Positions 8,323 through 37,156 of a stretch of 64,000 nt of DNA are shown piece by piece. A program made the position numbers and the translations under genes. The notes under the pieces are model-generated. The model ran no database searches. It had not been told where the DNA came from and was given only the letters and a program-made list of their open reading frames with translations. How positions within the stretch are numbered: the stretch's first letter is position 1; the number at the start of each line of letters is the position of its first letter. This DNA is from Candidatus Falkowbacteria bacterium (GTDB lineage Bacteria > Patescibacteriota > Patescibacteriia > Patescibacteriales > Patescibacteriaceae). Location: contig JAPLWA010000004.1 of the NCBI GenBank assembly GCA_026396835.1, positions 310,001-374,000 of the forward strand, in the 5' to 3' direction.

Positions 8323-8351
8323 ATTATAGCACCTATCTTAAATCTTGTCAA
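8323..8351 (-). promoter_or_regulatory. Consensus sigma70 promoter of the truncated secreted gene
   Basis: On the minus strand TTGACA (8351-8346) and TATAAT (8328-8323) are separated by exactly 17 bp. Transcription would start near 8316, about 40 bp before the TTG start codon. Confidence 0.8.
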
Positions 8352-29509: not shown

Positions 29510-30034
29510 TTAACGGGAATAGAATTCAACGATCAACTGACTGTTGATAGATTGATCTAAATCTTCTTTCTTTGGTTCACCAAGAATCTTACCTGACATT
29601 TCCTTTGGATCGAAATTTAACCAACCAGGAATATTGGCTTTCTTTAATCTTTCTTCAAGATTTACAAAAGTTTTCTTTTCTTTCTTATTCTTACGAACAG
29701 CAATAACATCATTAGGCTTTACTTGGTAAGAAGGAATGTTTACTTTTTGGTCATTAACTAAAAACTGAGCATGGCTTACCATTTGACGAGCTTGAGCGCG
29801 GGTAATAGCTAAACCAAAACGGTAAATAACATTATCTAAACGCATTTCTAAAAGACGCAATAAACTTTCACCAGCATCACTGCTTTTCTTTTGTCCTTTT
29901 AGGTAGGTTAGTTTAAATTGTTTTTCGCGCAAACCATACATTTCCTTAGTCTTCTGCTTTTCGCGTAATTGAAGACCGTAAGTACTTTGCTTCTTTGGTC
30001 GAGCTGAGCTCTGTTGTTTTGCTAATGGAGACAT
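29510..30034 (-). CDS. rpsD: 30S ribosomal protein S4
   Basis: The protein has 174 residues, shorter than the usual 200 or so, with the N-terminal part reduced. The S4 RNA-binding region is clear: RLDNVIYRFGLAITRAQARQMVSHAQFLVNDQKVNIPSYQVKPNDVI, and the end has GEPKKEDLDQSINSQLIVEFYSR. It binds 16S rRNA early in assembly. It stands 2 to 41 bp before rpoA depending on the rpoA start, in the conserved order rpsM-rpsK-rpsD-rpoA. Confidence 0.97.
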   Translation of the reverse strand: MSPLAKQQSSARPKKQSTYGLQLREKQKTKEMYGLREKQFKLTYLKGQKKSSDAGESLLRLLEMRLDNVIYRFGLAITRAQARQMVSHAQFLVNDQKVNIPSYQVKPNDVIAVRKNKKEKKTFVNLEERLKKANIPGWLNFDPKEMSGKILGEPKKEDLDQSINSQLIVEFYSR

Positions 30035-31617: not shown

Positions 31618-32517
31618 CTAAGCATTATACACTTCTTTCACTCTTTTACCCTCTTCAATAATTTCTTGCAAAATATTCAGCGGAACTGCCTTTTCAAATG
31701 AATAAATAACTTCTCCGTTCGTTTTAGATCTCTTTTCAAAAGATATAAAAACAATCTTTTCTTCATTGTATTTTCCGATATCTACAGAGAAGCCTTCGGT
31801 TTCACTAAAGCACTGCGAATCTAAGACTTTCACAAATTCGTCTCGCTCTGCCTTGCCCAAGGTCTTTTCGATAACTTTGGCAACGAATGATTCACATAAA
31901 CCCCTATGAGTTCCCAGAAAACGCTCTAAAGTCGAAGAATCATACTCCTCTGGCTTTGACTCAAGTATAGATTCCCAGTTATCAACGGCCTTGAGATATT
32001 TTTCAATAACCTGAGCAATTTGACTAGCCATACGAGAGTAAGTAGCTCCGCCTTCATCGTTTAACATTTCAGCAATATAATCACTTTCCTCAACCAAAAA
32101 TTTTAATGGTTCTTTTCTATCAAAAGACTCTCGCAATTTAAGATGATAGCCAGTTTCATGACTATTCTTAAACGCTAATCGATCATCTTGTCCTAGACGG
32201 CTGCCATATTTAAGATCTTGATTAACCTGCTCACTTGTTTCAATTAAACTATCAGTCTCCATATCACCACCAAAAGCCATCAACAGGGCTGTTTCTTTGG
32301 TACGATCATCTTTATCAGCAAAAGCTAAGGCATAGCTGTCTTTGGCGTGAAATTTAGATTTAGCCAATTCCCTGCCTTCCTGAGTTAGCTGAACATCTTT
32401 ATTTTCCTTATTACCCCGCGGCTCTTTTATTGAATGCCTGAAAAAATTCAAAATAATTCTTGGGACTACTAATTTTTCTTTATTCAATTGCTCGAAGTGA
32501 TCAAAATTTTTAGCCAT
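31618..32517 (-). CDS. Histidine phosphatase superfamily-like protein
   Basis: The protein has 299 residues. ILNFFRHSIKEPRG and QLTQEGRELAKSKF match the phosphoglycerate mutase/histidine phosphatase start (normally RHG...LTxxG). FADKDDRTKETALLMAFGG fits the second conserved Arg with ETA. GTHRGLCESF would supply the later His. The catalytic RHG is RHS here. The mid region is helical and unfamiliar. It may act on a phosphorylated small molecule or protein; the substrate is unknown. It lies 24 bp downstream of alaS and may share its transcript. Confidence 0.65.
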   Translation of the reverse strand: MAKNFDHFEQLNKEKLVVPRIILNFFRHSIKEPRGNKENKDVQLTQEGRELAKSKFHAKDSYALAFADKDDRTKETALLMAFGGDMETDSLIETSEQVNQDLKYGSRLGQDDRLAFKNSHETGYHLKLRESFDRKEPLKFLVEESDYIAEMLNDEGGATYSRMASQIAQVIEKYLKAVDNWESILESKPEEYDSSTLERFLGTHRGLCESFVAKVIEKTLGKAERDEFVKVLDSQCFSETEGFSVDIGKYNEEKIVFISFEKRSKTNGEVIYSFEKAVPLNILQEIIEEGKRVKEVYNA

Positions 32518-32541: not shown

Positions 32542-34398
32542 TTAATCGAGGATTGCCTTTATTCTTCTAATGCCAGAGGATGAACTTTCTTCCTTAGTAA
32601 TTTTAAAGTGATGCAATTCACTGGTATTCTCAACATGGGGGCCGCCGCATATTTCCTTGCTAAACTCTTCACCTGGATTACCTATAAAATAAACTTTTAC
32701 CTTATCTCCATATTTAGAATCAAATACACCAGTCGCGCCAATCTCTCGTGCTTTGTCTAAAGTCATTTCTTCAAAGTGAACTGGTAAGGCTTGTTCTATA
32801 GCGCCATTAACCAAATCTTCGACTTGGATAATCTGTTCAGGCGTTAATTTATCTGGATTTGGGAAATCAAAACGTAAACGTTCGGCTGTAATATTACTAC
32901 CTCTCTGAGAAACCTGATCATTCAAGACACGTCGTAAAGCAGCTAATAAAAGATGTGAGGCTGTATGCAAGCGAGTTGTTTCAACGCTACTATCAGCTAA
33001 ACCACCCTTAAATTTGCCAGCTGATGCCGTGCGTGATAAGTCTTGGTGTTTTTTTAACTCTTCATAAAAACCAGGCTCATCAACCGTGAAGTTTTTTTCT
33101 TTAGCTAATTCAATAGTCATTTCAATCGGAAAACCATAGCTTTGATATAAATCAAAAGCTTGCTCGCCGGAAATATTGCTAGATAGTTTTTCAAACTCTT
33201 TCTCTCCTTTTTCTAAGGTTGCACTAAACTTTTTTTCTTCCTTACTCAATTGTTCAATAATAAAAGTCTTATTTAAATTAAGCTCTGGATAAATCTCTTT
33301 ATAAAAGTTGATATAGATACTAGCCACTTCTTTCGTCCAATCTTCAGCTGTTATACCTAAAAGTCTAGCAAAACGCAGAGCACGCCTAATTAAGCGTCTA
33401 ACGATATAACCCTGATCGGTGTTTGATGGTGCGACACCTTTTTCATCACCCATGATGAAGGTCGCCGCTTTCAAGTGGTCAGCAATAATTCTAAATGCCT
33501 TATTATCATCCTCATATTTTTTTAGAGAAAGCTCTTCTATTTTTTTAATTGCATCACTAAATAAATCAGTCTGAAAAGCATCACTTTTAGCTTGAATTGC
33601 TGTGCACAATCTTTCCAATCCCCCACCAAAGTCAACATTTTTATTGGTTAATTCTTTCCAGCCATCAGCCGCTTTTTGATATTGCATGAAAACTGAATTT
33701 CCGATTTCAATAAAACGTCCGCAATCACAATTAGGATGACAATACTTACCAAATTTTTCATCATGAATCTTGCCAGTATCAAAAAAAGTTTCTGAGTCGG
33801 GTCCACCTAATTCACCAACCGCATCACCTCTTTGCCACCAACACTTTTTTTCGTAAGCAAAAATCCTATAATTGCTCATGCCCAATTTCAAGTCTTCACT
33901 AGGTCCGGCGTCAGCATCAAAATCAGGTGCCTCATCGGCATTAATGTCATATTTATCAAAAATCTGTAACATAATCTCAGCCGACTCGGTATCGCGTGGG
34001 ATATTGCCGTCTTCACTACCAATATAAATTGTTTGAAATAGTTTTTTTGGGTCAATTTTTATTTCCTCAACTAAAAATTCATACCACCAATTTAATTGTT
34101 CGCTTTTCCAATAGCCTGAACCTAATGCCCAGTTGCCTAACATTTCAAAAAAAGTATGATGCCGGTTATCTCCAATTTCATCAATATCTTCTGAGCGAAA
34201 AGATTTTTGACTATCAACTACACAATTACCAGCTGGGTGTTTAGCGCCTAGTAGATACGGCACCAAAGGAAACATGCCAGAGTTAACAAATAGTAATGTT
34301 GAGTCGTTTTCAGGAATTAAAGAAGCGCTCGGAATAATATTATGTCCTCGAGCCTTAAAAAATTCTAAATACTTTTGTCTAATATCAAATGAATTCAT
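32542..34398 (-). CDS. alaS: Alanine--tRNA ligase, short form
   Basis: The protein has 618 residues, where most bacterial AlaRS have about 870. The class II core is present (RQKYLEFFKARGHNIIPSAS, FVNSGMFPLVPYLLG, RHHTFFEMLGNWALG, FGGGLERL). The editing domain is present too, with TRLHTASHLLLAALR and CGGPHVENT carrying the zinc ligands. The C-terminal C-Ala domain is missing. This short form is common in CPR and resembles mitochondrial reductions. It charges tRNA-Ala and removes mischarged Ser and Gly. Confidence 0.95.
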   Translation of the reverse strand: MNSFDIRQKYLEFFKARGHNIIPSASLIPENDSTLLFVNSGMFPLVPYLLGAKHPAGNCVVDSQKSFRSEDIDEIGDNRHHTFFEMLGNWALGSGYWKSEQLNWWYEFLVEEIKIDPKKLFQTIYIGSEDGNIPRDTESAEIMLQIFDKYDINADEAPDFDADAGPSEDLKLGMSNYRIFAYEKKCWWQRGDAVGELGGPDSETFFDTGKIHDEKFGKYCHPNCDCGRFIEIGNSVFMQYQKAADGWKELTNKNVDFGGGLERLCTAIQAKSDAFQTDLFSDAIKKIEELSLKKYEDDNKAFRIIADHLKAATFIMGDEKGVAPSNTDQGYIVRRLIRRALRFARLLGITAEDWTKEVASIYINFYKEIYPELNLNKTFIIEQLSKEEKKFSATLEKGEKEFEKLSSNISGEQAFDLYQSYGFPIEMTIELAKEKNFTVDEPGFYEELKKHQDLSRTASAGKFKGGLADSSVETTRLHTASHLLLAALRRVLNDQVSQRGSNITAERLRFDFPNPDKLTPEQIIQVEDLVNGAIEQALPVHFEEMTLDKAREIGATGVFDSKYGDKVKVYFIGNPGEEFSKEICGGPHVENTSELHHFKITKEESSSSGIRRIKAILD

Positions 34399-34408
34399 GT
34401 TTTTAAAA

Positions 34409-34993
34409 TTATTTACATTTACCCCAAAGGCCTAATTTATTTGCTTTTGCTTCTTTTTCTATTTCCTTAAATAGACTAGCTTTAGCTGTGTCAGGCTCGA
34501 AGGGCGCCGCAATGGCAAAACCATTTTTAACTAATTCCATATTTACAAAGGTTCCGTCTTCTAAATAAACATAACCAAGTAAACGACCGAATTTATCACG
34601 CTCCGAAATATCTTTTTCAATTCTAATTTTTTTACCTTCAACTAAACGCTGATTTTCGTTAGCTGCTTCAAGGGAAAAACAATCAATCTTTTCGGTTTTA
34701 TTAAGCTCAGGAGCATCGACGCCGATATAACGTAATTTGTCATTATTTTCTAAGATAACAGTTTCACCATCAAGCACCTTGGCAACCCTTATAAAGCTTC
34801 CATATTGATAGGGTTGATCTTGAATCGTGGTATTTATTTTATCAGAAACTAGTCCCACTAAAGATAATGCCTTTTTACCTAAGTCTGATAAAGCCAGGGG
34901 TTTTTGCTTAAAAATAAAAATTACAACTATTACAGCAATAATTCCTAAAACAATAAGGGATCCGATGAATTTTAGTAATCTAAAATGTAGCAT
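34409..34993 (-). CDS. Secreted or anchored thermonuclease (SNase) family protein
   Basis: The protein has 194 residues. An N-terminal helix (LIVLGIIAVIVVIFIF) anchors or exports it. The SNase domain runs from about residue 68: RVAKVLDGETVILENNDKLRYIGVDAPEL, RLVEGKKIRIEKDISERDKFGRLLGYVYLEDGTFVNMELVKNGFA and KANKLGLWG. The catalytic Arg-Glu-Arg set looks intact (LRYIG, ERDKFGRLL). It may cut environmental DNA for nucleotide scavenging. A TATAAT box lies 5 bp before the ATG, so its mRNA is probably leaderless. Confidence 0.88.
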   Translation of the reverse strand: MLHFRLLKFIGSLIVLGIIAVIVVIFIFKQKPLALSDLGKKALSLVGLVSDKINTTIQDQPYQYGSFIRVAKVLDGETVILENNDKLRYIGVDAPELNKTEKIDCFSLEAANENQRLVEGKKIRIEKDISERDKFGRLLGYVYLEDGTFVNMELVKNGFAIAAPFEPDTAKASLFKEIEKEAKANKLGLWGKCK

Positions 34994-35023: not shown

Positions 35024-35052
35024 TTGACAATAGCTATAAAAGCGAATAATAT
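35024..35052 (+). promoter_or_regulatory. Consensus promoter of an orphan RNA
   Basis: TTGACA (35024-35029) and TAATAT (35047-35052) are spaced 17 bp apart. The -35 box overlaps an inverted TTGTCA on the minus strand that may serve the divergent thermonuclease gene. The predicted start is near 35059. Confidence 0.85.
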
Positions 35053-35058
35053 CAAAAT

Positions 35059-35352
35059 ATTAGTTTAGTATTGTTCTTTCGAACCTTCCACAGGTCGGTG
35101 ATTTCTAGGGGTCACTTATCGAATAAGCTTTATTCTTTGTTTTGAAAAATGGGGTTAAGTAAAGGGATCAGGGCAAATCATCCATTAAAGCTACCTAGAA
35201 TAACAATTTTTTGCAGGAAGAATCTCTTCGGAGTGTAAACTGCTTGTTTGCCGGGAAACATCTAGGCTTATAAACACGTTACTTTAACTACGGTTATACG
35301 TGGATACGAATTGTTATTAAAGCGTCAGACAAACATCATCTGGCGCTTTTTT
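35059..35352 (+). ncRNA. Unidentified stand-alone structured RNA, about 294 nt
   Basis: A consensus promoter at 35024-35052 and a terminator at 35319-35352 bound a segment with no plausible gene on either strand. The 3' half folds as one domain: AATAACAATT (35199-35208) pairs perfectly with AATTGTTATT (35309-35318), right next to the terminator stem. Inside are GAAGA-ATC-TCTTC, enclosed by GCAG/CTGC, and TGTTT/AAACA. The 5' half has GAATAA/TTATTC and an overlapping CTTAT/ATAAG. It lacks the tmRNA tag and T arm, the RNase P core and the SRP GGAAG motif. A new RNA class is possible. Confidence 0.65.
35319..35352 (+). terminator. Terminator of the orphan RNA
   Basis: AAAGCGTCAGA (35319-35329) pairs with TCTGGCGCTTT (35339-35349) through 11 bp with one G-U, followed by T residues. 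It lies just before the convergent tgt stop. Confidence 0.88.
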
Positions 35353-35363
35353 ATTTATTCAAA

Positions 35364-36509
35364 CTAAATCGATTTTCTTATCTCAGTCATTAAGTCAAGA
35401 TAGAATTCTAAATTATTTAAAGTTGCCAATCTCTTGCCTAAAGGTTCATTTATTTGAAATAGATAATGCAAATAAGCTAAAGATAATTTACGTAATTCAG
35501 GAATCTTGGAATTTTTATTTATTAAATTTTTATCATTAGCATATTTAGCGTTGGTGATCGTAATTGTTTTATAAAAATCTTTTGTCGCTACTTTCTTAGA
35601 AGCTAGAAGTTGTTTAATTTTTTTACTAGTATCTTTATCAAAAGAAAATAGTCTACCGTGGCGCCCTTCACGAGTTGGAATAACACAATCAAACATATCA
35701 ACTCCCCTCTTAACGGCTTCAATAATATTTTCTGGATAACCAACACCCATCAAATATCTAGGTTTATCCTTTGGTAAAGCATCGGTTAAGTAATCAAGGA
35801 CTTTATACATCTCGTCATTAGTTTCACCAACCGCTAAACCGCCAATATTATAACCATCGAATTTAAGCGCGCTTAATTCAGCTGCACTTTTTAAACGCAA
35901 ATCTTTCTCAGTACCACCCTGAACAACCGCAAAAATCAATGGTTTATTATTTTTAATCTTTTTTGAGTAAATTTTTGTGCGTTTGGCCCACTCAGTTGTT
36001 AAATCGACTGAATGTTCTAAATATTTTCGTTTAGCAGGTAAGGCCACGCATTCGTCTAAGACAACGGCGATATCAACACCTAAGTCAGCTTGAATCTGCA
36101 AAGATCTTTCAGGAGTTAAATAATGCTTTGAGCCATCAATATATGAAGAAAATTTAACACCCTGTTTACTTAATTCAACTAAGCTTTTACCGCTTTTAGT
36201 TCTATCAGCAGCTAATGAGAAAATTTGAAAACCACCGGAGTCTGTCAGAATAGCACCATCCCAATTCATGAATTTATGCAAACCACCAAACTTTTTAACA
36301 TACTTTTCACCAGGTCTCAACATTAAATGATAGGTATTAGACAAAAGAATTGGTGAACCAAGTTCACGAACATCATGAGTTGAAGCAAACTTAATTGTCG
36401 CCTGTGTTGCCACCGGCATAAAAAAAGGCGTTTCCAAACTGCCGTGGCGAGTTTTTAAACTACCACGGCGGGCTAGATTATATTTATTTGTTTTCTTCAA
36501 TATGAACAT
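35364..36509 (-). CDS. tgt: tRNA-guanine transglycosylase lacking the zinc ligands
   Basis: The protein has 381 residues. The TIM-barrel and catalytic marks of bacterial Tgt are kept: LSNTYHLMLRPG, ILTDSGGFQIFSLA, AVVQGGTEKDLR, IGGLAVGETNDEM, YLMGVGYPENI, and FDCVIPTREGRHGRLF with the nucleophile Asp. The C-terminal zinc site (normally CxCxxC plus a His) reads NSKIPELRKL and TLNNL, so all four ligands are lost. An insertion of about 18 residues precedes this part. It would place queuine or preQ1 in tRNA, if it still folds without zinc. Two orphan RNAs flank it. Confidence 0.93.
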   Translation of the reverse strand: MFILKKTNKYNLARRGSLKTRHGSLETPFFMPVATQATIKFASTHDVRELGSPILLSNTYHLMLRPGEKYVKKFGGLHKFMNWDGAILTDSGGFQIFSLAADRTKSGKSLVELSKQGVKFSSYIDGSKHYLTPERSLQIQADLGVDIAVVLDECVALPAKRKYLEHSVDLTTEWAKRTKIYSKKIKNNKPLIFAVVQGGTEKDLRLKSAAELSALKFDGYNIGGLAVGETNDEMYKVLDYLTDALPKDKPRYLMGVGYPENIIEAVKRGVDMFDCVIPTREGRHGRLFSFDKDTSKKIKQLLASKKVATKDFYKTITITNAKYANDKNLINKNSKIPELRKLSLAYLHYLFQINEPLGKRLATLNNLEFYLDLMTEIRKSI

Positions 36510-36655: not shown

Positions 36656-36745
36656 GTGTTCATGAAGCGAAAGCTTTATTCAGCTAAGGAATCTCCAATG
36701 CTGAAAATGAGCACATAAAAGAACCGCTTACAAAGCGGTTTTTTT
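36656..36745 (+). ncRNA. Unidentified small RNA with three-way junction, about 90 nt
   Basis: Promoter and terminator frame a compact RNA. P1 is TGTGTTCAT/ATGAGCACA (36655-36663/36707-36715, one G-U). Inside are P2, AAGC-GAAA-GCTT (36665-36676, GNRA tetraloop), and P3, TTCAGC/GCTGAA (36679-36684/36700-36705), with a 15-base loop holding AAGGAATCTCC. The terminator AACCGCTT-ACA-AAGCGGTT and seven T residues follow. No reading frame uses it. The fold resembles a riboswitch aptamer, but no gene lies downstream on this strand, so it is probably a trans-acting RNA. I know no matching family. Confidence 0.7.
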
Positions 36746-37156
36746 ATTTTTTTCATAAACGCTGTTCTTTTCTCGAGCCTTCATAATACTATAAAAAGTT
36801 ATCTCACCATCTCCTATTTTTCGCAAAACTACTGTAACTATTGGACTATTATTCCCTACACTTGCCTTTAACCCCCAAAACTTTGCGTACTTTCCTTCTT
36901 GCTTCAAATATCTCTCTTCGTATTTAAAAATACTAACAGCTTTCTTAATCACAGGAACTGCCAATGGCAATAAATTTAATCTATATATCTGCTCTTTCTT
37001 CAATCTCTCATGGCCCGCCCCATTGTATCTAAGATGATAAAAGCCCTTAGAATTAAAGTTAACCATCGCCTGAAGAACTTGACAAAATACTGGTCTTAAA
37101 GTTTTGTAGTAAGCCCTTCTTTCTTGGATGAATTCTTTGTGTGTATCTAGCGACAT
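36728..37156 (-). CDS. Hypothetical basic protein
   Basis: The protein has 142 residues, rich in Lys, Arg and Tyr. It starts MSLDTHKEFIQERRAYYKTLRPVFCQVLQA; residues 75-130 are beta-rich (AKFWGLKASVGNNSPIVTVVLRKIGDGEITFYSIMKAR). The second half could be a small nuclease or toxin-like fold of the YafQ/BrnT sort, but no motif proves this. Its stop codon lies inside the terminator of the convergent small RNA at 36656-36745. It stands alone. Confidence 0.5.
   Translation of the reverse strand: MSLDTHKEFIQERRAYYKTLRPVFCQVLQAMVNFNSKGFYHLRYNGAGHERLKKEQIYRLNLLPLAVPVIKKAVSIFKYEERYLKQEGKYAKFWGLKASVGNNSPIVTVVLRKIGDGEITFYSIMKAREKNSVYEKNKKTAL

Follow-up and report, generated by a model that had tools for sequence, protein, structure and literature searches.

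A putative standalone RNA gene beside tgt in Candidatus Falkowbacteria resembles a shortened 16S rRNA 5′ domain and may mimic the uS4 site

A segment at positions 35024-35352 of the 64,000-nt stretch of Candidatus Falkowbacteria DNA analysed here (the window) appears to be a standalone RNA gene. Judged by sequence and predicted folding, its 3′ domain (35199-35318) is a shortened 16S rRNA 5′ domain, pared down to the h3/h16/h17/h18 junction, whether by derivation or by mimicry. We consider this anatomy and the relationship to 16S, taken jointly, to be very probable. The best explanation for the whole chain of observations is a trans-encoded 16S mimic that binds ribosomal protein uS4, which we regard as a real possibility that still falls short of being probable. 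The original prediction was that the segment may be a new structured RNA of this lineage. A structured, standalone gene that Rfam does not name is what we find, while the novelty has to be qualified, as the 3′ half is related to 16S, a similarity that the prediction had missed.

Results

Anatomy of the gene

The segment and its neighbours are arranged as follows.

35024-35052, + strand: sigma-70-type promoter, TTGACA (35024-35029), 17-nt spacer, TAATAT (35047-35052), 10/12 matches
35319-35352, + strand: intrinsic terminator, 11-bp stem (35319-35329/35339-35349) and a U run to 35352
34409-34993, − strand: SNase-family nuclease gene, divergent neighbour of the RNA gene
35364-36509, − strand: tgt, neighbour convergent with the RNA gene

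The TTGACA-17-TAATAT promoter, the U-tailed 11-bp terminator and the lack of a gene between them had all been predicted, and each is borne out. No other + strand position in the 64 kb combines a perfect −35 element and 16-18 nt spacing with 10 or more of the 12 consensus matches. The terminator, AAAGCGTCAGA-CAAACATCA-TCTGGCGCTTTTTT, has a loop of 9 and a stability of −13.6 kcal/mol (z −5.6); counting this one, five strong terminator loci were found on the + strand of the window. The promoter-terminator segment holds no + strand ORF that reaches 40 aa. This anatomy is best read as that of a standalone structured RNA gene, which would be transcribed from a predicted start near 35059.

Several features of the surrounding DNA were recorded along the way. 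Perfect 12/12 sigma-70 promoters occur on the − strand at 31555-31527, upstream of infA and the alpha operon, and at 8351. The alanyl-tRNA synthetase gene (32542-34398, −) is short, encoding 618 aa that stop at the SAD editing domain and lack a C-terminal domain, and the ORFs at 31618-32517 and 36728-37156 (both −) have no Pfam match. The nearest named relatives of the tgt product are from Candidatus Falkowbacteria (66%).

A comparison with Rfam, as proposed with the original prediction, left the RNA gene without a name: there was no match in the window at the gathering threshold, and relaxing the limit to E ≤ 10 gave only noise. This agrees with the earlier view that the gene is not tmRNA, RNase P, SRP or 6S RNA. 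The first two identities are rejected also on the ground that the true genes are present elsewhere in the genome, and SRP RNA is rejected for want of an Rfam match at the gene. No SRP RNA (RF00169) was found in the whole genome (G000), where it may be diverged or missing, although RNase P RNA and tmRNA are present.

Relationship of the 3′ domain to 16S rRNA

When the segment was compared by BLAST with 61 related genomes no orthologue was found, and the best matches were 16S rRNA genes, with 88-91% identity over 34 nt and E values from 1e-5 to 3.5e-7. The matching 34-nt stretch is h16. Apart from h16, the part that follows also matches the 16S of this genome and of relatives: positions 35266-35317 align with the genome's own 16S without gaps at 32/52 identical positions, the homologous offset being picked among all positions; the next-best offset gives 23/52, and none of 2000 shuffles reaches 32. 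When the entire segment was aligned pairwise to 16S with loose gaps, the result carried no information. A covariance model built from the window element alone (R1) found matches in 59 of the 111 genomes searched from the order. Most fell at model positions 19-110, and 58 of the 59 genomes had one match each, the own genome giving both the element and its 16S. The same pattern was seen in the class, where 103 of 381 genomes matched, and all 55 non-self R1 loci inspected were 16S genes. Because a model made from the element alone retrieves 16S, the element is recognisably 16S.

That the gene encodes a new structured RNA whose resemblance to 16S is due to chance seems to us scarcely credible. Such a reading would fit the silence of the Rfam SSU model (RF00177), which does not report the element up to E=10, but it is contradicted by the retrieval of 16S with R1 and by the fact that independent segments both fall on the correct 16S positions, in order. 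Over the retained region, sequence and structural homology to 16S are present; a full-length gene with an intact 530 loop is not what we see, the element being ~120 nt long with the 530 loop lost.

Retained and lost parts of the junction

The helix names and E. coli numbering below were matched by hand to the established 16S secondary structure.

35199-35208, + strand: h3-like closing helix, 5′ strand (hand-matched to E. coli 28-37 without the bulged G31)
35213-35243, + strand: h16-like hairpin GCAGGAAGAAUCUCUUCGGAGUGUAAACUGC (BLAST, alignment), GUAA at 35235-35238
35244-35273, + strand: h17-like hairpin, 28 nt shorter than 16S h17 (MFE)
35275-35302, + strand: h18-like hairpin CACGU/ACGUG, 16S h18 length kept, 530 loop sequence lost
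35309-35318, + strand: h3-like closing helix, 3′ strand (E. coli ~546-555), abutting the terminator

The 10-bp helix 35199-35208/35309-35318 is exactly as predicted, as is its stacking against the terminator, the two being directly adjacent at 35318/35319 with no spacer. A perfect 10-bp repeat anywhere in 294 AT-rich nucleotides is expected ~0.07 times by chance, and one that flanks the 16S-like core ~3e-4 times. The MFE structure of 35195-35322, obtained without 16S guidance, places this helix around three hairpins that match h16, h17 and h18, and the 10-bp helix is therefore the counterpart of h3. Compared with shuffled sequences, the core (35195-35322) shows a stronger fold (z −2.7), whereas the segment as a whole does not (z −1.2). 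Relative to 16S, nucleotides ~38-400 (h4-h15) are missing, so that the ~360 nt between the h3 5′ strand and h16 are represented by four U's. The 3′ strand of h3 is reached by continuous alignment with 16S; for the 5′ strand, descent from 16S h3 rather than re-evolution is inferred on ten nucleotides.

Among the pairs formed by the genome's own 16S in h3, h16 and h18, 21 of 24 are kept, five of them through double changes (three in h3, one each in h16 and h18). In a neutral simulation that placed the same number of substitutions randomly, five double changes had P ~3.5e-5, for a set of 24 pairs that was selected after the sequence had been inspected. The h16 and h18 double changes are seen in the 16S genes of other lineages too and may therefore have been inherited from a donor, leaving only the three in h3 as particular to the window RNA. 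The h3 statistics that rest on alignment A6 lean towards the model, since the h3 bulge was removed and the U linker supplied in its 16S rows. Covariation in the 35199/35309 helix, which the original prediction proposed to look for among related genomes, is seen in comparison with 16S and not among orthologues.

A line of evidence that is independent of pairing comes from the distribution of divergence. In h16 the element differs from 16S genes by 0.13, against 0.14 among 16S genes themselves; in the 530 loop the corresponding values are 0.49 and 0.035. Counted as differences, h16 has 4/34 and the 530 loop region 20/52 (Fisher P 0.007), the reverse of the constraint on 16S. With the helices and h16 kept and the 530 loop, elsewhere invariant, destroyed, the side of the uS4 site is retained and the decoding side lost.

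These data bear on the main rival explanation, namely that an incomplete copy of 16S, either the genome's own or a foreign one, was inserted between the nuclease gene and tgt and is now decaying, drifting without function. We judge this unlikely, but it carries real weight: the RNA is found in one genome and is missing at the same place in a second genome of the genus (G001), it has suffered a large internal deletion and lost the 530 loop, and its 5′ half has no folding signal. Against decay stand the pairing maintained through double changes, a promoter and a terminator placed at the two ends, and the far better preservation of h16, as drift alone is not expected to spare h16 yet ruin the 530 loop.

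The 5′ half and a probable second member

The remaining features concern the 5′ half of the RNA and an orphan RNA in a genome of the same family (G011).

35059-35194, + strand: 5′ domain of the RNA, without folding signal and without similarity to 16S or to any other sequence found
35170-35183, + strand: AGGGCAAATCATCC, 13/14 matches to the 5′ terminus of the G011 orphan RNA
G011 contig C30, locus L250, 1030-1249, − strand, at the contig end: orphan RNA of at least 220 nt with its own terminator

Folding of the 5′ half does not exceed that of shuffles (z +1.0), and a 16S nhmmer profile gave no support for an rRNA origin; likenesses to h11 and h17 noted by eye were rejected as unsupported by that profile. 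Target prediction for the 5′ half returned nothing above the spread.

In G001 the gene order orf-tgt-nuclease-alaS is kept, with a tgt-nuclease gap of 100 nt that lacks the RNA, and no copy beside tgt was present in the relatives examined. A search of 800 of the 870 kb of G001 (~92%) found only its own 16S, as did a search of the whole of the assembled pieces of G008, a genome of the same genus as G011, where three weak further matches were rejected as chance. The 16S genes of G001 and G091 (L004, L066, L080) carry a ~0.9-kb intron-like insertion with an ORF, inside h18 right after CUCGU. Across the 111 genomes of the order, the class sample and the phylum sample, no second copy was found among the matches listed, other than the probable member in G011. 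Matches to a second covariance model (R2), built from the element and spliced 16S rows, were opened for the order and, among the matches listed, for the phylum sample; all were 16S genes, whole or intron-split, with the exception of the G011 locus. Extra R2 matches in G074, G062, G053 and G054 were rejected as neither 16S nor RNA genes, the one in G031 was a real 16S at a contig end, and those in G563, G585, G504, G522, G536, G476, G663, G540 and G790 were real or intron-split 16S. Searches of phage, plasmid and IMG/VR sequences for the origin of the element gave no matches.

The G011 orphan, truncated at its 5′ end where the contig stops, folds well (z −2.2) and converges with a DEAD-box helicase gene. 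Within it lies a 16S h18 whose 530 loop is intact; the Rfam SSU model scores this at 29.2 bits (E 4.7e-7), short of the gathering score of 50. No h16 can be recognised in the orphan. The h18 stem reads CACGU/ACGUGG in both orphans versus CUCGU/ACGAG in the 16S genes of the genus that were examined. Both also contain AGGGCAAAT(C/T)ATCC, at 35170-35183 in the window, which holds the sole 9-mer that they have in common. The motif GGGCAAATNATCC has 25 matches in the 111 genomes and is accompanied by 16S similarity in G000 and G011 only, the other matches being mostly chance or coding. The estimated probability that the 14-mer is shared by chance is ~1%, so a common origin of the two RNAs is likely, and the G011 orphan is probably a second member of this RNA family. 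Conservation within the lineage is sparse, with one probable relative in the same family and no tgt-adjacent copy in the relatives examined.

The G011 orphan also gives substance to another rival explanation, in which the RNA mimics 16S for a different ligand, such as uS12, an rRNA-modifying or assembly factor that acts on h18, or an RNA partner, its likeness to the uS4 site being incidental. This we consider improbable, though distinctly less so than a chance resemblance to 16S. As this probable member keeps h18, with its 530 loop intact, rather than h16, a different 16S ligand is conceivable, but the window RNA has lost precisely the 530 loop, and its retained core is the uS4 junction.

Discussion

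In 16S rRNA, uS4 binds the five-way junction of the 5′ domain; the same protein regulates both rrn antitermination and the alpha operon (PMC10931766). In Firmicutes and Fusobacteria, known S4 leaders mimic a GUAA within the uS4 site (PMC7247131), and the element retains this GUAA at 35235-35238 along with the pairing of h3, h16 and h18. An RNA that has preserved h16, h3 and the h18 stem but not the decoding loop is best matched by uS4 as ligand; binding of uS4 by the RNA, and any regulatory effect of that binding, are what we infer from this pattern. The 3′ domain (35199-35318) would descend from the 16S uS4-binding junction h3-h16-h17-h18 by removal of h4-h15 and of everything downstream of h3 and by shortening of the h17 tip, the helices and h16 being retained while the 530 decoding loop decayed. 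The RNA might then capture free uS4 in trans, as a decoy, and hence buffer it; alternatively, it may alter how much uS4 is available to autoregulate the alpha operon or to act in antitermination. Several observations run against a uS4 decoy: the RNA lacks h4, which in 16S belongs to the uS4 site, so that the junction is not one of five helices; no orthologue occupies the locus in G001 or was found elsewhere in ~92% of that genome or in G008; and a probable family member with an intact 530 loop and no recognisable h16, as in G011, is not predicted by a pure decoy model.

The gene of the proposed ligand lies within the window.

29510-30034, − strand: rpsD (uS4), 5 kb from the RNA gene

The order around it is that of an alpha operon, rpsM-rpsK-rpsD-rpoA-rplQ. 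The encoded uS4 has 174 aa, and its match to the Pfam N-terminal S4 domain starts at profile position 40/95, indicating a shortened N-terminus. Since rpsD is 5 kb away and on the other strand, the RNA is not located in the 5′ UTR of an operon that contains it. With no + strand gene downstream, a role in trans, as decoy or buffer, is likelier than control in cis. It is conceivable that the RNA is a uS4-responsive attenuator, in which uS4 bound beside the terminator controls read-through into the strand antisense to tgt, and the direct contact of h3 with the terminator at 35318/35319 would suit such an arrangement. We think this very improbable, however, as tgt is convergent and a + strand gene to be controlled is lacking.

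Returning to a uS4 mimic that acts in trans, comparison with known systems shows where it would be familiar and where it would differ. From the five-way junction of 16S (h3, h4, h16, h17, h18; RF00177) the element has the same order of h3, h16 and h18 with their pairing kept, the same length of h18, and an h16 within the range of 16S divergence. Unlike the 16S 5′ domain, it lacks h4-h15, has a shortened h17 and a lost 530 loop, ends after h3, and possesses its own promoter and terminator, unlinked to an rRNA operon. With the uS4 leaders, namely the alpha-operon pseudoknot of Gammaproteobacteria, the rpsD leader of Firmicutes and the S4 motif of Fusobacteriales, it would share the binding of uS4 through imitation of rRNA, and the GUAA is likewise kept in the latter two (PMC7247131). 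In contrast to these leaders, the element is outside a 5′ UTR, has no r-protein gene downstream, and bears a far more extensive similarity to 16S, from which it is evidently derived. The proposed mode of action, a standalone RNA that titrates an RNA-binding protein, is that of the decoy sRNAs CsrB/RsmZ and CrcZ (PMC8058203), although protein and fold are different, the element has a single site, and sequestration is here a proposal. 6S RNA is also a standalone RNA that mimics a natural nucleic-acid ligand; it imitates promoter DNA for RNA polymerase and has no relation in sequence or structure to the element.

In bacteria, rRNA mimicry has been described for mRNA leaders that are bound in cis by ribosomal proteins (PMC7247131, PMC10931766), and searches of the openly accessible literature turned up no case of a separate 16S-derived RNA gene. 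We speculate, as a doubtful extension, that the window RNA and its probable relative belong to a small, family-level set of 16S-derived standalone RNAs that mimic the uS4 site in trans and would set the balance of ribosomal proteins in place of an mRNA leader. If true, the element would represent a natural minimal uS4 site and would show how pieces of rRNA turn into regulators, with the protein site kept and the decoding loop discarded.
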